The position numbers and the translations under genes were made by a program. A stretch of DNA of 46,244 bases from positions 1-46,244 of the forward strand of contig JAFUHF010000041.1 of NCBI GenBank assembly GCA_017468985.1. The letters are read 5' to 3'. This stretch comes from Bacteroidaceae bacterium (GTDB lineage: Bacteria; Bacteroidota; Bacteroidia; Bacteroidales; Bacteroidaceae). The number at the start of each line of letters is the position of its first letter. Positions within the stretch are counted from its first letter, which is position 1. Below, piece after piece: positions 6,487 through 17,187 of the stretch. The notes below the pieces were generated by a model. The model ran no database searches and was not told where the DNA came from. It saw only the letters and a list, made by a program, of their open reading frames with translations.

Positions 6487-6559
6487 CGCTACGTTTGAGG
6501 AGACCGCCCAGCGAAACTTGCGCAGTCCCTAATTGATAAAGCACTTTAGCATCATTGCA

Positions 6560-9181
6560 ATGACGAATTTAGACCTGAGAACCTTAGGACTTACTCCCGA
6601 CGAGGTAGAAGCGCAGCGACAACAATTTGGACGCAATTTAATCACTCCCCAAAAGCGCAGGAGCGTACTCAGCCTGTATTTGGAGAAGTTTCGCGATCCC
6701 ATCATCCGTATACTGCTTGCTGCGGCAGCCCTTTCACTGATCATTGGGATAATAGAAAATCAATACGTAGAAACCATAGGTATTGTCGTCGCCATCTTGC
6801 TGGCAACTGGTATAGGATTCTACTTTGAATATGATGCACAGAAGAAGTTCGACGTGCTCAATGCATTGGGACAAGAAGAACTCACCACCGTAGTACGCGA
6901 GGGGCGTGTAATTCAGATTCCTCGAAGCGAATTGGTGGTAGGCGACATCGTTATTTTGGAGCAAGGAGCAGAAGTACCTGCCGACGGACAACTACTGGAA
7001 GCCATCGGGATGATGGTCAATGAATCGTCCCTGACAGGAGAGCCCATTTGCCATAAAACTGCCGAAGCTCCGGCACAAATGAACGACAGCACGTATCCGC
7101 GCAACAAAGTACTACGGTCGTCTATGATTGCCAGCGGCCACGGCATAATGAAAGTAGAGGCCATTGGCGATGCCACTGAGATAGGTCGTGTGGCACATCA
7201 GGCAACAGCCAGCAACCATATACAAACACCACTTGGTTTGCAATTAGATCGCCTTTCAAGCCTCATTAACAAAGTAGCGATCATTGTGTCTGTGGCCGTA
7301 TTCATTGCTTTTAGCATTCATGGGCTTTTGGTTTACCTCGGTGACATTTCTGCCACGGGTGAAGGAGGATGGCTACGAGGTGCTGAGATACTGCTGAAAT
7401 ATTTTATGGTAGCTGTAACGCTAGTAGTGATGGCTGTCCCTGAAGGTTTGCCCATGGCCGTCACTCTGAGTTTGGCACTGAATATGCGAAGGATGCTTAA
7501 AACGAATAATTTGGTTCGTAAGTTGCATGCTTGCGAAACGATGGGGGCCATCACCGTAATATGCACGGACAAGACAGGGACGCTCACACAAAACCAAATG
7601 AAAGTTTCTGACCTGAAATATCAGAAAGAAGAAGAGAAGTTTCTTTTTGAAAATATTGCAGCCAACTCTACGGCCCATTTAGAAGGTGGAGAAGAAAAAG
7701 GATGCATTGGCAATCCTACAGAATGCGCCCTGCTGCTTTATCTTCAAGATAAGGAGCAAGACTATGCAGAACTACGGCGAAAGGCACACATCATAGAACA
7801 ACTTCCCTTCTCAACGGAACGTAAATACATGTCTACCATCGTAGAATCAGGCATAACCGGTAGAAGAATACTCTACGTAAAAGGAGCTCCTGAGCAGCTC
7901 ATTGCCTTATGTACAGGGAATAATGGGGGTAATCAAGAATTTATAGATCAACTGGCCACTTACGAAGCCTCAGCAATGCGTACATTGGCTTTTGCTTATA
8001 AATTTTTGGAAGAATCCGATGGCACCGACTGCATACAAATCACCGAACAAGGAGGACTACGGCTGACTGGTATTTGCGGCATTATGGACCCCATCAGGCC
8101 CGAAGTTCCTGCTGCGATTGTCACCTGTCAGAATGCAGGAATCAATGTAAAAATAGTAACCGGCGACCACGAAGGCACTGCCATAGAAACAGCACGTCGC
8201 ATTGGCCTATGGACAGAGCAAGATTCATCAGAGAATGCTATCAGCGGAAAAGCCTTTGCCAAAATGAGTAATGAAGAAGCTTTGGAAAAAGTTGAACAAA
8301 TCAAAGTGATGAGCCGCGCCCGACCGATGGATAAACAGAGATTTGTAGAACTTTTACAGAAGAAAGGGGCTGTTGTTGCTGTAACAGGCGACGGGACTAA
8401 TGACGCACCGGCCCTTCATCATGCCCAAGTAGGCTTATCAATGGGAAGTGGAACAGCCATAGCTAAGGAAGCCAGCGATATTACACTGATTGATGACAGC
8501 TTTCGCTCAATAGCCACCGCCGTAATGTGGGGACGCAGTTTGTATAAGAACATACAACGTTTCATTGTATTCCAACTCACGGTTAGCCTCACAGCTATGG
8601 TAATTACTCTGTTAGGAGCCTTCTTTGACACAGACATGCCACTAACGGTTACACAAATATTGTGGATCAACCTCATCATGGACACATTTGCCTCATTGGC
8701 CCTCTCCACCATTCCACCATCTTCTGACGTCATGAAGGAGAGGCCTCGGCGAACGGCTGATTTCATCATCACTAAACCCATGTGGAAAAGTATTATCATT
8801 ACATCCGCTCTTTTTGTCATGATACTGCTTTATATCATCCTCTATTACGAACAATGGGGACGAAACACCCTCAACGTTCACGACCTTACCATAATATTTA
8901 CAACATTCGTAATGTTACAAATATGGAACCTGCTTAACGTGCGTACTATTGGTACTCACGACTCTGCATTCCATCATTTGAACCAATGCAGGGGACTTTT
9001 ATTGGTAATTGCCCTGATTTTTATAGGACAGATTTTGATCGTACAATTTGGTGGTGCCATTTTCCGCACCGTTCCACTTCAATTCAACACTTGGCTCATT
9101 ATCATAGCAAGTACTTCCGTCCTATTTTGGATTGATGAATTATGTAGATGGCTCAGACGCCTCTCCCAGAAAAAACAATAA
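6560..9181 (+). CDS. Calcium-translocating P-type ATPase (PMCA/SERCA-like)
   Basis: An 873-residue P2-type cation pump that exports Ca2+ at the cost of ATP. ATG 6560 is preferred over an in-frame TTG at 6533 because the family N-terminus (a short cytosolic segment ending in QQFGRNLITP) starts there. Features: TGE dephosphorylation motif (159-161), PEGLP in the fourth membrane helix (294-298), phosphorylation site CTDKTGTLTQ with Asp337, nucleotide domain with KGAPE, hinge motif GDGTNDAPAL near 610, and six C-terminal membrane helices with NLIMDTFASLAL, which supplies ion-binding Asn and Asp residues. All key residues are intact. It heads a run with ribF, rpe and comEC, although a functional link to these is not obvious. 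Confidence 0.92.
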   Translation: MTNLDLRTLGLTPDEVEAQRQQFGRNLITPQKRRSVLSLYLEKFRDPIIRILLAAAALSLIIGIIENQYVETIGIVVAILLATGIGFYFEYDAQKKFDVLNALGQEELTTVVREGRVIQIPRSELVVGDIVILEQGAEVPADGQLLEAIGMMVNESSLTGEPICHKTAEAPAQMNDSTYPRNKVLRSSMIASGHGIMKVEAIGDATEIGRVAHQATASNHIQTPLGLQLDRLSSLINKVAIIVSVAVFIAFSIHGLLVYLGDISATGEGGWLRGAEILLKYFMVAVTLVVMAVPEGLPMAVTLSLALNMRRMLKTNNLVRKLHACETMGAITVICTDKTGTLTQNQMKVSDLKYQKEEEKFLFENIAANSTAHLEGGEEKGCIGNPTECALLLYLQDKEQDYAELRRKAHIIEQLPFSTERKYMSTIVESGITGRRILYVKGAPEQLIALCTGNNGGNQEFIDQLATYEASAMRTLAFAYKFLEESDGTDCIQITEQGGLRLTGICGIMDPIRPEVPAAIVTCQNAGINVKIVTGDHEGTAIETARRIGLWTEQDSSENAISGKAFAKMSNEEALEKVEQIKVMSRARPMDKQRFVELLQKKGAVVAVTGDGTNDAPALHHAQVGLSMGSGTAIAKEASDITLIDDSFRSIATAVMWGRSLYKNIQRFIVFQLTVSLTAMVITLLGAFFDTDMPLTVTQILWINLIMDTFASLALSTIPPSSDVMKERPRRTADFIITKPMWKSIIITSALFVMILLYIILYYEQWGRNTLNVHDLTIIFTTFVMLQIWNLLNVRTIGTHDSAFHHLNQCRGLLLVIALIFIGQILIVQFGGAIFRTVPLQFNTWLIIIASTSVLFWIDELCRWLRRLSQKKQ

Positions 9182-9218
9182 GCAAACTTTTGCATGCGTT
9201 ATCACTCCATATATTAAG

Positions 9219-10166
9219 ATGAAAGTAATCTCCGTCACAGCAGCCCCTAATCAACAGGTTAAATATGTGCCCTGCGTTGCTACCATTGGTTTCTTTGACG
9301 GTGTTCATTTGGGGCATCTTGACCTAATCAGACAATTGTGCAAAGAGGCTCACCTAATGCATCTGCCAGCAACGATTATCACCTTTCCCAATCACCCCCT
9401 TACAGTTCTAAGGCCAGGCCACCATCCTCAACTCCTCACGACCATAGAAGACAAAATCTCTCTTCTGGAACAAGCCGGAGTTGACATGTGCTACCTGATA
9501 CCGTTTACACAAGAATTATCCCAACTGTCTGCTTACGATTTCATGAAACATTACCTCAAGGAAAAATGGAACGTAAAGCGACTCATTGTAGGCTATGACC
9601 ATCATTTTGGCCATAGTAATAGCGACAAAAAAGATAATTACAAAATCTACGGCCAAGCGTTAGACATACAAATCACCACGGCCTCTCCTTGCATGCTCAT
9701 GGGCGAGACCATCAGCAGTTCCATTATCCGTAAGGCCATCCTACAGGGAAACGTTAATAAGGCCCGAACCTTCTTAGGACGTCCCTATTCTCTCAAAGGA
9801 AAAGTGGTACACGGGTTACACAATGGTCATAAATTGGGCTTCCCCACAGCAAACATTCTTCCTGAAAACATTCAGACCATTATTCCCAATAATGGAAGTT
9901 ATGCTGCATATACACATGTTAACCACCATACCTATCAGTCCATGGTAGGCATTAGCAATCGGCCCAGCATAGGCCATCATCTGCAGCGTACCATTGAAGT
10001 CCACATTTTCGACTTTCAGGAAGACCTATACGGATCCACATTACAAGTAGACTTTATCGAAAAGATCCGCGACGAAAAAGTATTCGATAGTACAACTGAC
10101 CTTGCTGCACAACTCCAGAACGATGCCGAACAGGCACGCCATTTATTAAACTCTATTGATTCCTGA
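9219..10166 (+). CDS. ribF: Bifunctional riboflavin kinase / FAD synthetase RibF
   Basis: A 315-residue cytosolic enzyme that phosphorylates riboflavin to FMN and adenylates FMN to FAD. ATG 9219 is chosen because the family N-terminus (MKVISVTAAPNQ) begins there; the longer open frame overlaps the ATPase gene. The FAD synthetase domain shows ATIGFFDGVHLGH near residues 26-38 and VGYDHHFGH near 125-133. The riboflavin kinase domain begins with LGRPYSLKGKVVHG and contains LGFPTANI near 206-213. Both active sites look complete. It starts 37 bases after the ATPase stop and ends about 36 bases before rpe, so co-transcription is likely. Confidence 0.95.
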   Translation: MKVISVTAAPNQQVKYVPCVATIGFFDGVHLGHLDLIRQLCKEAHLMHLPATIITFPNHPLTVLRPGHHPQLLTTIEDKISLLEQAGVDMCYLIPFTQELSQLSAYDFMKHYLKEKWNVKRLIVGYDHHFGHSNSDKKDNYKIYGQALDIQITTASPCMLMGETISSSIIRKAILQGNVNKARTFLGRPYSLKGKVVHGLHNGHKLGFPTANILPENIQTIIPNNGSYAAYTHVNHHTYQSMVGISNRPSIGHHLQRTIEVHIFDFQEDLYGSTLQVDFIEKIRDEKVFDSTTDLAAQLQNDAEQARHLLNSIDS

Positions 10167-10202
10167 TTGCGCAATAATATACTCACATTATTCTTTTCTT
10201 CT

Positions 10203-10865
10203 ATGAGCCAACGAATGATAGCCCCGTCACTCTTATCCGCCGACTTCGGTCACTTAGCAAGCAATATTGAAATGCTAAACGAAAGTCGTTGTGATTGGTT
10301 CCATCTTGATGTAATGGATGGCGTATTTGTACCAAATATCAGTTTCGGATTTCCTGTAATGGAGGCAATAAAACAATTTGCCAAGAAGCCGCTTGATGTT
10401 CATCTGATGATTGTTCAACCAGAAAAGTTTATTGATCAGGTAAAAAGTCTTGGAGCACATGTAATGAATGTCCATCAGGAAGCATGCCCCCATCTGCATC
10501 GCGTTTTGCAGCAAATCAAAGATGCAGGAATGAAAGCAGGTGTTACGCTCAATCCATCCACTCCCATAGGAAGTATTGAAGACATCTTGGAACTGGCAGA
10601 CATCGTGATGCTCATGTCTGTCAACCCTGGTTTTGGTGGCCAGCAATTCATAGCCCACACAATAGATAAAACATGCCGGCTGCGCGCCCTTATTGATCAG
10701 AAAAAACTATCTACGTTAATAGAGATTGACGGTGGAGTGAGTCGCCTGAACGCAGCGCAGCTCTACGATGCAGGTGCAGATATTCTGGTGGCAGGAAGCG
10801 CCGTTTTCCGTGCTCCAAGTCCTATTGACGAAATTGATTTGATTAAAAATGCCACGTTAGCTTGA
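10203..10865 (+). CDS. rpe: Ribulose-phosphate 3-epimerase
   Basis: A 220-residue TIM-barrel enzyme of the pentose phosphate pathway that interconverts D-ribulose 5-phosphate and D-xylulose 5-phosphate. The start ATG at 10203 gives MSQRMIAPSLLSADF; a second ATG at 10215 is possible. Conserved motifs are APSLLSADF, FHLDVMDGVFVPN (His and Asp metal ligands), LDVHLMI, MSVNPGFGGQ and EIDGGV with the catalytic aspartate. Full length, no defects. Its TGA stop overlaps the TTG start of comEC (TTGA at 10862-10865), indicating translational coupling. Confidence 0.96.
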   Translation: MSQRMIAPSLLSADFGHLASNIEMLNESRCDWFHLDVMDGVFVPNISFGFPVMEAIKQFAKKPLDVHLMIVQPEKFIDQVKSLGAHVMNVHQEACPHLHRVLQQIKDAGMKAGVTLNPSTPIGSIEDILELADIVMLMSVNPGFGGQQFIAHTIDKTCRLRALIDQKKLSTLIEIDGGVSRLNAAQLYDAGADILVAGSAVFRAPSPIDEIDLIKNATLA

Positions 10866-12976
10866 TTCGGTTAGAACCTCAGCCTTTGCAGGCCCCTCTT
10901 TTACCTGTTGCTACCTCATTTATTGTCGGTATTGTCATTGCCGAACTTCTTCCTTCATCTCCTTTTACAATCTTCTTTTCAATCTTAGGCGTTGTATTAT
11001 GCCTAATCATACTACATCTGCTATACAGGAGAAAATTGCGATTGAATTATGGCTTCAGCATAGCCATAATAATCATTCTTTTCGCAAGTTTAGGTATTGC
11101 TCGTAGCCATATATGCATCGACAAGCCCCAGAAGCCTTGGCCCGATGGCGAAAGAGTATGGCGCGGCATCATTACTGACATCACTACCCATAATGGATAT
11201 TCTCGCTCTACCATACAGCTTACAAGTTATCATGAAGATGGAAAGTGGCATGCCGAAGGGCGAAAAACAGAATGCATGCTCAATACTACACATGATGACA
11301 TCAAGATTGGAGATGGATTGATTTTCATTGCCCACATACGACCACCACGCAATCCGGGCAACCCTCATGAATTCGATTACGCTCAATGGCTGATTCGTAA
11401 AGGATTTGAAGGACAAGCACAAATTTGGGAGAAGTGGAAAAAACTCCACAAAACCGAAACCCGGAAACAAATTGATCATTTGTCATGGTTTTTACGATTG
11501 AAAATACACACATTGATGTACCGTGACCGTTTAACAGCACAATTCAGGGTATTTCCCATGGGTGATGCAGAAATGCAAGTCGTTTCGACCATGACGTTAG
11601 GAAATAGACAACTGCTCACACAAGATGTCCGAAATCTCTATGCTCACTCCGGGGTAGCCCATGTCTTGGCCCTTTCTGGACTCCATTTAGGGATTCTTTT
11701 TGGATTCCTTTCAACCTTGATGCAACCACTGCGCCGCAAAAAAGCAGACAGAACAATATACACATTGGTATGCATGGCCACCATTTGGAGTTACACATTC
11801 CTTACTGGTATGAGTATTTCTATTTTGAGAGCCGCGCTAATGTATTCGCTCTATGTTATGGTGAATTTTAACAGACATGAGGGCACCAGCCTCAATCAGC
11901 TCTGCATTGCCGCTCTGATCATAACATTATGGAATCCACAAAGCGTTTTCGATGTTGGCTTTCAGCTCTCGTTTCTCTCTGTACTGACCATTCTCTGTCT
12001 TATGCCCTACGTTAGGCAATTGAAAATTCACCACAAACCATTACGTATATTGTATTACATGGCAATGGCCAGTATCATTGCACAAACAGCCACAGCACCA
12101 CTCATAATATACTATTTTCACTATGTTTCCTTCTTCTTCCTGCCAGCCAATTTGATTGTTATTCCCTGCATATACTTCATTCTTATTGGCACTATCTTCT
12201 ACTTCCTTTTTTCTCCCTTTCACATAGTACAGAGCATTTTTGTGCAAATCATAGCACATACAGCAAACTTTCTAAACCGCTTCCTTTTATGGATTTCGCA
12301 TTTCCCCTATCACCATATAGAACTATATCCCACTCTCACCGAAACGCTCCTCATCTACGTCCTACTTGTCGCCTTCTTTCTGCTCATTATAAAACATGCT
12401 GTTCGCTACTGCCTTTATGTAATAGTCTTCGTAATGGGTATATTAGGCGTTCTTCATCTTATAACATCCACAAAACAAGAATCGACACAAATCATCTTCT
12501 ACAATACGGGCACAAAACCAACTGTTCACTTTTTACTTAACAATAAGCAATCATACCTGTGGACATTACCTCATGACTCAGCTAATTTCGCTCTTCGCAA
12601 TATTTCCAAAAATTACTGGGCTCCTCATCACATCTTACAACCAGTACAATTCTCAGAGCACTCATCATTTCCTCAATTGAGATGCAACGAAAACATCATC
12701 CTATTTCGCAAAAGACGCATCGCCATACTTAGCGATGACCGCTGGCCCAAAAGAGAAGTGCCCCAGGCTTTGCCAGTAGACTACCTTTACCTGACGAAAG
12801 GCTACCACCATTCATTGAGCGATGCCTTAAGAATCTTTCATCCTAAAATGGTCATCATCAGTGCATCACTTCCAGATGAAATCCGCAAACAGATGGCTAC
12901 CTATTGTATCACACATCAATTAAGCTATTACGATATTGCCGAAAGCGGTGCATTGAGCCTAAAATTATCCGATTGA
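10862..12976 (+). CDS. comEC: ComEC/Rec2-family DNA uptake channel protein
   Basis: A 704-residue polytopic membrane protein of the ComEC/Rec2 family, which forms the inner-membrane channel for single-stranded DNA in natural transformation. The start appears to be TTG at 10862: no ATG lies near the N-terminus and the first membrane segment follows at once. An OB-like region (about 90-190) contains [16 protein letters not shown], typical of DUF4131-type ComEC N-domains. The competence domain has [11 protein letters not shown] near 266-276 and [10 protein letters not shown]. The C-terminal portion, after about residue 530, resembles a shrunken metallo-beta-lactamase domain that has lost HxHxDH. 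The other genes needed for competence are not in the window, so function in transformation is inferred from the family. Confidence 0.88.
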
Positions 12977-13006
12977 AAATCCGAAACGGAAATCATTCTC
13001 TGAAAA

Positions 13007-13038
13007 TTTGGCAGTTACAAAAAAAATTACGAACTTTG
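13007..13038 (+). promoter_or_regulatory. Promoter of rpsF-rpsR-rplI
   Basis: TTTG at 13007-13010, a 20-base gap, and GAACTTTG at 13031-13038 (seven of eight matches to TAnnTTTG). The transcript should begin near 13044, leaving an A-rich leader of about 43 bases before rpsF. No S6:S18-type leader RNA structure was recognised in it. Confidence 0.7.
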
Positions 13039-13086
13039 CAGCCTCAAAATCCAAAAACAAACAAATTAATTATCATTCAACAAAGT

Positions 13087-13431
13087 ATGAATCAGTACGA
13101 AACCGTTTTCATTTTTACTCCCGTTTTGTCTGAAGATCAGATGAAGGAAGCGGTTGGGAAGTTCAGAGATCTACTGACTTCTAATGGTGCCGAGTTTCTT
13201 TACGAAGAAAATTGGGGTATACGCAAGTTGGCATATTCCATTGAAAAAAAGTCAAGCGGCTTTTACGTCGTATTTGGCTACAAAGTAGCACCTACCGCCA
13301 TCAAGACATTAGAAATTGCGTTCCGTCGTGACGAACGCGTACTTCGCTACCTCACAGTCAAAATGGAAAAGTACGCAGCCGCTTATGCTGCTAAACGTCA
13401 ATCATTAAAAGCAAACAAAAAGGAGGACTAA
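13087..13431 (+). CDS. rpsF: 30S ribosomal protein bS6
   Basis: A 114-residue ribosomal protein that binds 16S rRNA on the platform of the small subunit together with bS18. ATG 13087 gives [18 protein letters not shown], the normal bS6 start; the longer open frame runs back into comEC. Typical segments are the [10 protein letters not shown] strand and the [14 protein letters not shown] strand near residues 80-95. The final codons (Lys-Lys-Glu-Asp) contain the strong Shine-Dalgarno of rpsR. The gene itself has no Shine-Dalgarno, only an A-rich stretch before ATG. In Bacteroidetes ribosomes bS6, bS18 and bS21 together bury the anti-Shine-Dalgarno tail. Confidence 0.97.
13419..13426 (+). promoter_or_regulatory. 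Strong Shine-Dalgarno of rpsR
   Basis: AAAGGAGG, eight contiguous bases complementary to the 16S 3' tail, ends seven bases before the rpsR ATG, which is ideal spacing. It lies inside the last codons of rpsF. Such sites are rare in Bacteroidetes; no Shine-Dalgarno was seen at the other starts checked (rpsF, hemW, cotH, leuS, rdgB). Confidence 0.9.
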
Positions 13432-13433
13432 TT

Positions 13434-13706
13434 ATGGCAGAAGAAAGAAATTCAGAGATCAGATACTTGACTCCCCCATCAGTAGACCTGAAAAGAAAGA
13501 AGTATTGCCGCTTCAAGAAAAGTGGAATCAAATACATTGACTTTAAGGATCCCGAATTCCTGAAGAAGTTTCTTAATGAACAGGGTAAGATTCTACCCCG
13601 GCGTATCACTGGCACATCGTTGAAGTATCAGCGTCGTGTAGCTCAGGCTGTAAAGAGAGCACGTCATCTTGCACTGCTTCCATTTGTTACTGACTTAATG
13701 AAATAA
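13434..13706 (+). CDS. rpsR: 30S ribosomal protein bS18
   Basis: A 90-residue small-subunit protein that pairs with bS6 on the platform. The sequence is typical of Bacteroidetes bS18: [39 protein letters not shown], then [20 protein letters not shown] and RHLALLPF. It starts two bases after the rpsF stop and is preceded by AAAGGAGG. Its stop codon overlaps the Shine-Dalgarno of rplI. The strong ribosome-binding site is unusual for the phylum and may reflect feedback by ribosomes with an exposed anti-Shine-Dalgarno tail. Confidence 0.98.
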
Positions 13707-13711
13707 GGAGG
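13705..13711 (+). promoter_or_regulatory. Strong Shine-Dalgarno of rplI
   Basis: AAGGAGG, seven contiguous bases complementary to the 16S tail, ends ten bases before the rplI ATG and overlaps the rpsR stop codon. This fixes the rplI start at 13722. Confidence 0.88.
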
Positions 13712-13721
13712 AAATAGAGTT

Positions 13722-14171
13722 ATGGAAATCATATTGAAAGAAGACGTTGTTGGTTTAGGCTATAAGAACGACATCGTAAACGTAAAAGATGGCTACGGAC
13801 GTAATTATCTTATCCCCACTCGTAAAGGTGTAATTGCTTCCGAATCTGCCAAGAAAGTGTTAGCTGAAGAATTGAAACAACGCGCTCATAAGTTAGCCAA
13901 GATAAAGGCCGACGCCGAAGAATTGGCAGCAAAATTGGCTCAGGTAGAGGGTCTCGTGATTCCTACCAAGGTCAGTGCAACTGGCGTAATCTACGGATCA
14001 GTAAATAGTCTACAAATCGCTGAAAAATTGAAGGAAAAAGGCTTCGATATTGACCGTAAGATCATCATTGTTAACGATGTTAAGCAGACAGGATCTTACA
14101 CAGCCACTGTAAAACTTCATAAAGAAGTGTCTGTTGAGATACCATTCGAGGTTGTTGCAGAACAAGAATAA
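13722..14171 (+). CDS. rplI: 50S ribosomal protein bL9
   Basis: A 149-residue large-subunit protein that binds 23S rRNA at the base of the L1 stalk. The N-terminal RNA-binding domain is clear: MEIILKEDVVGLGYKND, GYGRNYLIPTRKGVIA. A long connecting helix (about 45-75) leads to the C-terminal domain with GVIYGSVNSLQIAEKLKEKGFDID-like sequence. It is last in the rpsF-rpsR-rplI operon and is followed by a clear intrinsic terminator. Full length and unremarkable apart from its strong Shine-Dalgarno. Confidence 0.97.
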   Translation: MEIILKEDVVGLGYKNDIVNVKDGYGRNYLIPTRKGVIASESAKKVLAEELKQRAHKLAKIKADAEELAAKLAQVEGLVIPTKVSATGVIYGSVNSLQIAEKLKEKGFDIDRKIIIVNDVKQTGSYTATVKLHKEVSVEIPFEVVAEQE

Positions 14172-14200
14172 TTATTCCCAGTTAATATAGAGATCAGACC

Positions 14201-14243
14201 GGTCCCTTCCCCATCAAAATGAGGAAGGGACCTTCTTTTTTTC
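14201..14243 (+). terminator. Intrinsic terminator after rplI
   Basis: GGTCCCTTCC (14201-14210) pairs perfectly with GGAAGGGACC (14223-14232) across a 12-base loop, followed by TTCTTTTTTT. This ends the rpsF-rpsR-rplI transcript. Confidence 0.92.
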
Positions 14244-14359
14244 ACGCTACTTCCATGCCCCAGAAACTCTATCATCTTTCCAATTTAGAATCATTACGCC
14301 CCTTCGATGCTCGTACCCCCAGGTTCTAAAATTCAATTGTAAAAGATTTCTCGATTTAT

Positions 14360-14467
14360 CCACGTTCCAACTGTCTTCACGAGTATCGTATAGGCAGATT
14401 AACACGTGCTTATTGGAACCACGAGTATTGGCAAATGGCACTTGCACGGGTCAGTCCGTAAGCACGT
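14360..14467. repeat. Interspersed repeat element, single-unit copy
   Basis: This segment shares both flanks and one internal unit with the element at 45791-46027: a left part including GTCTTCACGAGTATCGTATA, a core GGCAGATTAACACGTGCT, and a right part including GGCACTTGCACGGGTC and GTCCGTAAGCACG. ACGTGCTTA (14404-14412) and TAAGCACGT (14459-14467) form a perfect 9-bp inverted pair. The two copies are in the same orientation. No reading frame encodes a mobility protein, so the element would have to be non-autonomous or a structured repeat. Confidence 0.85.
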
Positions 14468-14726
14468 ACTGTACAAGTGGTACAAAAGTTTCTTTAAAGA
14501 ATGTATATTCCTCCTATTTCGTGCGAACCTTAATTCAAAAATTGCATTTTTTCATAAAAACATTGAGATAACACCTATAAGTGATTCCAAGCGAGATACT
14601 GCCATTCAGGCGTACAAATACCATGCCCTCATTGTGGGAGGAAAAGGGCATCTCGTGTTCCCAGCCAATGCTTATTTTCAGAAGTGAAAGAAGATGCTGT
14701 GGTAATTTAAAACAATGTAAAAAAGA

Positions 14727-15027: not shown

Positions 15028-17187
15028 TTATGCCTCTTCGGCCTGCTCTGCCTCATGCTCCTTGATGAGTTTATCCTGTACATCAGCAGGAACAAGCTCA
15101 TAACTGGAGAAGGACATCGTAAACGATGCACTGCCAGCGGTAATTGAACTCAATGCAGTGGAGAAACTGGAGAGTTCCTTCAAAGGAACCTTAGCATTCA
15201 GCTTCTGATACCCACCATCGGAATCCATTCCCATGATGATGCCCCTACGTCCCTGCAGGTCACTCATTACGTCACCCATATAATCGGCAGGAACAAGTAC
15301 TTCTACATCATAAATGGGTTCAAGAATCTTTGGACCGGCATCGCGGAATGCTGCACTGAAGGCATTACGGCCTGCGAGCATGAACGATACTTCGTTTGAA
15401 TCCACAGGATGCATCTTACCATCGTATACGATCACACGCACATCACGAGCATAGCTTCCGGTCAGAGGTCCTCTTTCCATACGCTCCATAATTCCTTTCA
15501 GAATGGCAGGCATGAAACGTGTATCAATGGCACCTCCCACAACGGAATTAATGAATACCAGCTTTCCACCCCATTCCAAAGGAATCTCTTCCGTACTACG
15601 CGGAGTGATCTTGAATTCTTGACCTCCGAATTTGTACATTGAGGGGTCTGGCATGCCTTCTGTGTATGGCTCAAGTATGAGATGCACTTCGCCAAACTGG
15701 CCTGCGCCTCCACTCTGCTTCTTATGGCGATAGTCGGCACGAGCCGTCTTCGTAATCGTTTCACGATAGGGAATGCGCTGCTCGTAAAGTTCTACCTGAA
15801 TCTTGTCATTGTTTTCCAAACGCCATTTCAGCGTACGCAAGTGGAATTCGCCCTGACCATGAATCAGAACTTGGCGCAGTTCCTTACTCTGCTCAACCAC
15901 CCAGGTGGGATCTTCCTCTGACATGCGGTTGATGGCCACCATCATCTTTTCCATTTCGGCCACGTTCACGGGGCGAATGGCACGCGTATATTTGGCGTTC
16001 GGATATTTGATGTAGTTGAAGCGATTTTCTACGTCTTTTCCATTCAGCGTGTTACCGGTATGTACATCTTTCAACTTTACGGTGCAACCTATGTCACCTG
16101 CTTTCAGCTCTGACACTTTTATACGGTTCTGGCCTGCACACACAAAGAGCTGCGAAATTCTTTCCTTCGAACCGCGATCTGCGTTCTGTAAATCATCTCC
16201 TTCGTGCACCGTACCACTCATCACTTTGAAGTATTGCACCTCACCAATGTGTGGTTCCATACCCGTCTTGAAGAAAAAGAGTGATGTGGGACCTTCACTG
16301 TCTGGAGTTACCTCTTCGCCTTGTGCATTTTTCACCTTTGGCATATCACTTACGAAAGGCACCACATTGCCAAGAAACTCCAGTAAACGGTCTATGCCCA
16401 TATCCTGACGTGCGCAAACGCAGAACAATGGGAAGATGCCTCTTGCAACCAACCCCTTGCGTATACCTTCACGTATTTCGTCCTGCGTAAGGCTTTCCGA
16501 CTCAAAAAACTTCTCCATGAGCGCGTCGTCGTGCTCTGCGGCAGCTTCCACCAAGGCATGATGCAATTCTTCAGCCTTATTTTGGAATTCGGCAGGAATG
16601 TCTGTAATAGTTGCCTTTCCACCGTTTTCAGGATAGGTGTACTGCTTCATTAGTAACACGTCAATGATGCTATTGAATCCGGGGCCAGTGGCAACGGGAA
16701 ATTGAACCGGAATTACATTGGAACCATAAACTTCATGAAGCTTCTCTAAGATGGTATCAAAATCACACTTATCGTCATCCAGCTGATTCAAGAGGAAGAT
16801 CACCGGCTTGCCCAGCTTCTGCGTCTGACGGAACTGGTTCTGCGTTCCTACTTCAACGCCTTTTGCACCATTAATCACGATTGCAGCCGTGTCTGTAACG
16901 TTCAAAGCCGTTATAGATGCTCCTGCAAAGTCATCAGAACCCGGACAATCAATAAAATTCAACTTCTTACCGTTGAACTCAGAATGAAAAACCGTAGCAA
17001 AAACAGAATAACCATACTCTTGCTCCACGGGGAAATAGTCACTGACCGTATTCTTTGAGGCTACATTGCCTCTACGCGTAATAAGACCACTCTCGAACAG
17101 GATGGACTCAGTGAGGGTGGTCTTTCCCGCACCTGCATTGCCAAGAAGGGCAATGTTTTTAATCTCATTTGTTTGATATACTTTCAT
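15028..17187 (-). CDS. fusA2: EF-G2-like translation factor lacking the catalytic histidine
   Basis: A 719-residue protein with the full domain order of elongation factor G: G domain (about 1-280), domain II, then domains III-V to the C-terminus. The P-loop GNAGAGKT (16-23) is intact. The switch-II motif, DTPGHVDF in ordinary EF-G, reads DCPGSDDF here (80-87), so the histidine that activates water for GTP hydrolysis is replaced by Ser84. The NKxD motif reads NQLD (134-137). This pattern fits Bacteroides EF-G2, a factor reported to support translation without GTP hydrolysis and to be induced by the regulator Cur during carbon limitation. It lies near rpsF-rpsR-rplI on the opposite strand. The symbol rests on this similarity; ordinary EF-G must be encoded elsewhere. 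Confidence 0.85.
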   Translation of the reverse strand: MKVYQTNEIKNIALLGNAGAGKTTLTESILFESGLITRRGNVASKNTVSDYFPVEQEYGYSVFATVFHSEFNGKKLNFIDCPGSDDFAGASITALNVTDTAAIVINGAKGVEVGTQNQFRQTQKLGKPVIFLLNQLDDDKCDFDTILEKLHEVYGSNVIPVQFPVATGPGFNSIIDVLLMKQYTYPENGGKATITDIPAEFQNKAEELHHALVEAAAEHDDALMEKFFESESLTQDEIREGIRKGLVARGIFPLFCVCARQDMGIDRLLEFLGNVVPFVSDMPKVKNAQGEEVTPDSEGPTSLFFFKTGMEPHIGEVQYFKVMSGTVHEGDDLQNADRGSKERISQLFVCAGQNRIKVSELKAGDIGCTVKLKDVHTGNTLNGKDVENRFNYIKYPNAKYTRAIRPVNVAEMEKMMVAINRMSEEDPTWVVEQSKELRQVLIHGQGEFHLRTLKWRLENNDKIQVELYEQRIPYRETITKTARADYRHKKQSGGAGQFGEVHLILEPYTEGMPDPSMYKFGGQEFKITPRSTEEIPLEWGGKLVFINSVVGGAIDTRFMPAILKGIMERMERGPLTGSYARDVRVIVYDGKMHPVDSNEVSFMLAGRNAFSAAFRDAGPKILEPIYDVEVLVPADYMGDVMSDLQGRRGIIMGMDSDGGYQKLNAKVPLKELSSFSTALSSITAGSASFTMSFSSYELVPADVQDKLIKEHEAEQAEEA

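Follow-up and report, generated by a model that had tools for sequence, protein, structure and literature searches.

Strong Shine-Dalgarno sites precede the rpsR and rplI genes of the Bacteroidaceae bacterium analysed here and, judged by comparison with related loci, they are real sites kept by selection acting on the RNA. The genome, sampled outside its main ribosomal-protein operons, is otherwise at background for such sites, and the ribosomes of this bacterium probably ignore the classic ribosome-binding signal. As far as the available passages of the published accounts go, the pattern of sites on rpsR and its likely role in feedback are already in print, and the present genome is a further instance of the pattern. 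The exchange of sites between rpsR and rpsU within the order, a GTAT extension matched to the 16S rRNA and the independence of the rplI site do not appear in those passages and are additions of the present comparison.

Shine-Dalgarno Sites of the rpsF-rpsR-rplI Operon

The window (the whole stretch of 46,244 nucleotides that was analysed) carries on its forward strand rpsF (bS6; 13087..13431; TIGR00166, 1.6e-21), rpsR (bS18, 90 aa; 13434..13706; TIGR00165, 6.2e-33) and rplI (bL9, 149 aa; 13722..14171; TIGR00158, 2.1e-34), an operon whose products were identified by NCBIfam, as was that of hemW. The Shine-Dalgarno site of rpsR, AAAGGAGG (13419..13426, + strand), lies within the terminal Lys-Lys-Glu-Asp codons of rpsF, with a spacing of 7 nt from its final G to the ATG of rpsR (13434). 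The site of rplI, AAGGAGG (13705..13711, + strand), overlaps the last two nucleotides of the stop codon of rpsR and is spaced 10 nt from the ATG of rplI (13722). Duplex energies against the 16S rRNA tail ACCUCCUUUCU were -12.2 kcal/mol for rpsR and -11.1 kcal/mol for rplI; both pass, at proper spacing before the start codon, the value of -7 kcal/mol that defined a site throughout this work. No Shine-Dalgarno site was found before rpsF (+2.6 kcal/mol), and rpsU, located elsewhere in the genome, gave -1.1 kcal/mol and thus has no extended site of the Flavobacterium johnsoniae type. An Rfam scan of positions 12700-14700 (4227 families, E up to 1) returned as its sole match an unrelated one on the opposite strand (E 0.57). 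Adjoining the operon and facing it is another gene for elongation factor G (15028-17187, - strand), a second one that belongs to the Bacteroides type (NF058620).

Among the 23 window genes with a scored upstream region, a list that omits ORFs with unclear starts, only rpsR and rplI pass -11 kcal/mol. One further gene reaches -9.3 kcal/mol through a G-rich stretch with no exact 4-base match, and the remaining ones are at -6.4 kcal/mol or weaker. Alternative ATGs near the N-terminus of nine window genes, including hemW and the genes at 6533-12976, gave -6.3 kcal/mol at the strongest. A preliminary description of this DNA had noticed the strong sites on rpsR and rplI and their absence from rpsF, hemW and three genes that it named leuS, rdgB and cotH; the two sites, and their absence from rpsF and hemW, are borne out by these energies. 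The heptamer AAGGAGG is itself common (10 copies in the window, both strands counted), and what is unusual is its place.

In a background of 257 genes of at least 100 aa from the window and 20 stretches, for which rpsR is too short, 8 genes reached -7 kcal/mol as against 16 in a mock region taken 40-60 nt upstream. Similarly, in 40 stretches that exclude the window and cover roughly one quarter of the genome, in an assembly that is 78.65% complete, 12 of 406 genes reached this value, compared with 26 in the mock region; the counts were 3 and 3 at -11 kcal/mol, and 3 and 0 at -12 kcal/mol. Two of the three strong background genes were inspected by eye and proved to be UvrA-like and ABC-transporter-like, each G-rich just upstream. 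An ABC-transporter-like gene (L088, 3509-5410) shows a 9-base match, GAAAGGAGG, upstream of its called start, possibly by chance. The view of the preliminary description that the genome otherwise lacks such sites is upheld by the 406 sampled genes, which are at control level; this covers genes outside the main ribosomal-protein operons, which in 19 relatives do carry some. Neither the 16S rRNA nor uL14, the marker for the S10-spc cluster, was found in the bacterium's own assembly (78.65% complete), and the parts of the argument that involve them therefore rest on relatives.

Conservation of the Sites and Selection on the RNA

The comparison covered 180 related loci, namely the own locus, 29 close relatives, a family sample of 40, a named set of 80 and 30 divergent loci. 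The family sample was taken from the best matches among 370 of 393 genomes and leans to relatives, and the named set comprises the best 80 loci among the matches listed, assigned to taxa by their record titles, one of which is Lachnoclostridium; the sets may share species. A site was present before rpsR in 147 of 180 loci (own 1/1, close 26/29, family 37/40, named 72/80, divergent 11/30), before rplI in 118 of 179 and before rpsF in 2 of 176, with 6 of 180 in the rpsR mock region. The spacing of the rpsR site is tight, with 132 of 147 runs of at least five bases at two neighbouring values. Two further samples of 30 genomes each were added from families outside the list of 40 loci, some families being unsampled and some repeated; the resulting set of 101 genomes represents most families of the order. 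Sites were found in this set before rpsR in 58/101, rplI in 74/101, rpsF in 1/100 and rpsU in 31/87 genomes, the mock regions giving 4/101, 0/101, 0/99 and 2/87, respectively. Conservation in relatives, whose absence the preliminary description had named as one refutation of its reading, is thus present in 147/180 loci and 58/101 genomes. Set against 500 permuted tails in the 101 genomes, the real 16S tail gave stronger pairing than 495 of them at rpsR and 487 at rplI; at rpsF it was average, 249 of the 500 being as good.

The sites could in principle be neutral, either a by-product of the purine-rich Lys and Glu codons that end rpsF or remnants from an ancestor in which Shine-Dalgarno sites were in use. 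Of the 58 site-bearing genomes in the family sample, 50 have the site within rpsF and 55 have it in a single frame, as a coding by-product should, and 5 of 500 permuted tails equal the real tail in pairing. The named set gives a different picture. Of its 68 site-bearing loci, 43 have the site within rpsF, 24 have it beyond the stop codon and one has it across the stop, and the rpsR sites fall in all three frames of rpsF. Glu codons at the place of the site are GAG in 56 cases and GAA in 8, compared with 478 and 507 elsewhere in rpsF (p = 2.5e-10), a count made on the named set, which was not selected for the site; a corresponding count on those genomes of the family sample that carry the site is biased by selection. 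The varied place relative to the rpsF stop, together with the preference for GAG, indicates that selection acts on the RNA. Codon bias and the varied position accordingly speak against a coding origin of the rpsR site, and with the fixed spacing and the absence of sites before rpsF also taken into account, we consider a neutral or coding by-product very improbable.

Distribution of Sites between rpsR and rpsU

A tblastn search for rpsU, run on 90 of the 101 genomes, located the gene in 87. A site occurred on rpsR only in 42 of these, on rpsU only in 26, on both in 5 and on neither in 14, so that 73 of 87 genomes carry one on rpsR or rpsU. Most of the 43 genomes (of 101) without an rpsR site that could be placed on a protein tree of 86 genomes fall in one branch of 30 genomes, in which no rpsR site occurs at all, 24 having a site on rpsU only and 6 on neither. 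Among the other 56 genomes the numbers were 42 with a site on rpsR only, 8 on neither, 5 on both and one on rpsU only; on this side of the tree an rpsU site is present in 1 of 9 genomes from which the rpsR site is absent. The tree has many weak inner branches (13 of 83 starred). Under parsimony the rpsR label has to change 8 times on the tree and the rpsU label 13 times. Fisher tests of the alternation between rpsR and rpsU gave p = 1e-7, a value on which we do not rely because the genomes with rpsU sites belong mostly to a single branch, and a test on independent pairs, with 4-5 supported pairs, had no power. Judged by the tree, the exchange between rpsR and rpsU is for the most part one deep split; on the large scale it amounts to a single event, accompanied by minor gains and losses.

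In the deep rpsU branch the site before rpsU is often AGAAAGAGGTAT (L239, L246, L247, L256, L258 and others), and in the 16S tail that matches such sites AACACC is replaced by AAUACC. The motif GTAT, which can pair with the AAUACC form of the tail, was found before rpsU in 12 of 18 genomes with AAUACC and in 0 of 23 with AACACC or CCACC. For 18 of these 41 genomes the base of the tail comes from the genome's own 16S and for 23 from another genome of the same family, family f73, which has both bases, being omitted; among the 18 the numbers were 5/9 with AAUACC and 0/9 with the other tails. Three genomes, one with AAUACC outside the branch (G112) and two with AACACC inside it (G026 and G054), all lack GTAT. 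As a control, GTAT occurs in the 18 AAUACC genomes before rpsF in 3, before rpsR in none and before rplI in one. The link between GTAT and AAUACC follows the same branch as the rpsU sites; as a sequence match it supports true pairing at rpsU and is no test of rpsR. The core CCUCCUUUCU is present in every 16S match listed; these matches represent 71 of the 393 genomes of the order and 4 of the 6 in the family of the window, the other two of the six, the own genome among them, giving no 16S match. No variant core occurred among these listed matches (71 of 393 genomes), and the order thus affords no covariation test of pairing at rpsR.

Sites on Other Ribosomal-Protein Genes

The rplI site is distributed independently of the rpsR site in the 101 genomes (neither 12, rplI only 31, rpsR only 15, both 43; p = 0.82) and also independently of the rpsU site (p = 0.44). 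The S10-spc-alpha clusters were scored in 19 relatives, 11 chosen from one group and 8 from the other so that both were covered, the own genome having given no match, and 62 of 577 gene-genome cells were at -7 kcal/mol or stronger. Sites were found on rplE in 17/19, rplF in 15/18, rplW in 6/17 and rpmD in 5/17 genomes, and a further 19 cells were spread over 13 other genes; of the 33 cluster genes, 16 were without a site throughout and another 13 had one in 1 to 3 genomes. The rplE site lies within the end of rplX, so that coding constraint is possible there. The sites of rplI, rplE and rplF are similar in strength to that of rpsR, and bL9, uL5 and uL6 are not among the proteins that bury the tail, which a loop confined to bS18 fails to explain. 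Sites on rplF and rplE occurred in both groups, and those on rplW and rpmD in the rpsR group only (6 and 5 of 10, compared with 0/7).

Such sites might act as general enhancers, used without any sensing by ordinary or just-terminated 30S subunits at tightly packed internal ribosomal-protein genes. Their occurrence on internal genes unrelated to tail burial (rplE 17/19, rplF 15/18, rplW 6/17, rpmD 5/17, rplI 74/101) would be expected of enhancers, as would the median distance in the family sample from the rpsF stop to the rpsR ATG, 3 nt with a site and 19 nt without. However, about half of the cluster genes (16/33) are without any site and 13 more have one in only 1 to 3 genomes, and Bacteroidia ribosomes are reported to be blind to Shine-Dalgarno sites in vivo and in vitro (PMC9976891). 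In the named set, moreover, 24 of 68 sites lie beyond the stop codon of rpsF, and there the gap is almost the same with a site as without (medians of 3 and 5, with only 7 loci lacking a site), so that close coupling is not needed. Enhancement of this kind appears unlikely, though it is a serious competitor.

A Possible Read-Out of Incomplete Ribosomes

PMC9976891 describes bS21, bS18 and bS6 as burying the 16S tail, with Y54 of bS21 redirecting it in F. johnsoniae, and bS21 as a protein that is added late and is able to dissociate. Ribosomes of F. johnsoniae without bS21 favour strong sites, with genetic and biochemical evidence at rpsU (same source). By analogy, the tail in the complete 30S subunit of Bacteroidia would be buried by these three proteins, and ordinary ribosomes would then be unable to read the sites. 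Subunits with an incomplete platform would expose the tail, read the sites and translate rpsR by preference, which would restore the platform. The reading subunits would most likely be those without bS21, or without both bS21 and bS6:bS18, rather than those without bS18 alone, because of the late addition and dissociation of bS21. The same subunits would read rplI, together with rplF and rplE in relatives, giving a small ribosomal-protein regulon and no private bS18 loop. That the sites are read-outs of an incomplete platform, with rpsR one target among several, seems to us evenly poised between true and false, burial, reading and feedback in this species being carried over from relatives. Against it stand the 14 of 87 genomes with a site on neither rpsR nor rpsU, the similar sites on rplI, rplE and rplF, which are not genes of burying proteins, and the 3 of 29 close relatives without an rpsR site.

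Strict autoregulation, in which only ribosomes short of bS18 read rpsR, was the form of feedback that the preliminary description had favoured as its own extension of the bS21 case. It agrees with the presence of a site on rpsR and none on rpsU in this genome and with the place of bS18 among the burying proteins. The sequences do not separate ribosomes without bS18 from those without bS21. bS18 binds together with bS6 during assembly, and subunits without it may not translate at all; the activity of such subunits is only hypothetical. With sites on other genes as well, and an rplI site that is independent of the rpsR site (p = 0.82), we regard the strict form as improbable. Feedback involving bS18 thus survives as an idea, one already raised in print, but a bS18-specific loop is weakened by the rplI, rplE and rplF sites and by the independence of rplI.

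A more extended form of the incomplete-platform reading is that the order exchanged its sensor gene, with an rpsU site whose GTAT matches AAUACC in one deep branch and a shorter rpsR site in the other. The two would be alternative outputs of one control read by incomplete-platform ribosomes, with rplI, rplE and rplF in the same regulon. We put this forward tentatively, as somewhat short of an even chance. Specialised ribosomes with a demonstrated role are rare in bacteria; if the proposal is true, a natural exchange of sites between the genes of two tail-burying proteins, with the rpsU site tracking a 16S base, would allow the model to be tested by comparing genomes. A response wider than one protein is suggested by the sites on rplI, rplF and rplE.

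Relation to Published Systems

McNutt et al. 2023 (PMC9976891) report sites on rpsR in Bacteroidales and frequent ones on rpsU and/or rpsR in other orders, list rplI among other site-bearing genes in certain Bacteroidia and, with credit to Jha et al. 2021, suggest that bS21 and/or bS18 may control their own synthesis; the same is stated of rpsU and rpsR in PMC8710568. The extension to bS18, offered by the preliminary description as its own inference, had therefore been anticipated, and the present operon resembles that Bacteroidia system in its genes, its site, its order (Bacteroidales for the rpsR site, with the rplI site known from certain Bacteroidia) and the proposed feedback. The published survey found rpsR no stronger than other such genes (PMC9976891, passages available). 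In contrast to the statement in those passages that no Bacteroidales passes two rpsU criteria, a deep branch of Bacteroidales with rpsU sites was found here. With a 13-nt tail like that of McNutt et al., 3 of 40 rpsU sites in genomes without an rpsR site reach -13 kcal/mol, and with a 16-nt tail 15 of 26 positive rpsU sites do so; the rpsU branch thus does not contradict the published survey. In the literature searched (titles and abstract openings, mostly outside subscription journals) no experiments on how rpsR is regulated in Bacteroidales were found.

The likeness to bS21 autoregulation in F. johnsoniae (PMC9976891) consists in a strong site on the gene of a tail-burying protein and in the conservation of Y54. 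The site there is on rpsU, measures 9-13 bp in its kind and has genetic and biochemical support, whereas the one described here is on rpsR, measures 8 bp and is seen in the sequence, with rpsU lacking one. Autorepression by bS6:bS18 through the rpsF leader (reviewed in PMC10931766) concerns the same operon and the same protein pair but, unlike the present sites, is repression through RNA structure before rpsF.

Residue 54 of bS21 is Tyr in 85 of 87 genomes, with one Phe and one sequence cut short, and the bS21 of this bacterium has Y54. A bS21 match was absent from three members of the order (G012, G045 and G102; 89-99% complete), in which, if the absence is real, the 16S tail might be free. 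By sequence, the nearest solved chains of bS18, bS6 and bS21 are those of 9I5V, followed by 7JIL, the F. johnsoniae ribosome according to PMC9976891. 9I5V and 9I5X share a bS18 very close to the present one, with a matching bS21 sequence listed for 9I5V only, and 9I5X may represent a related ribosome that lacks bS21.
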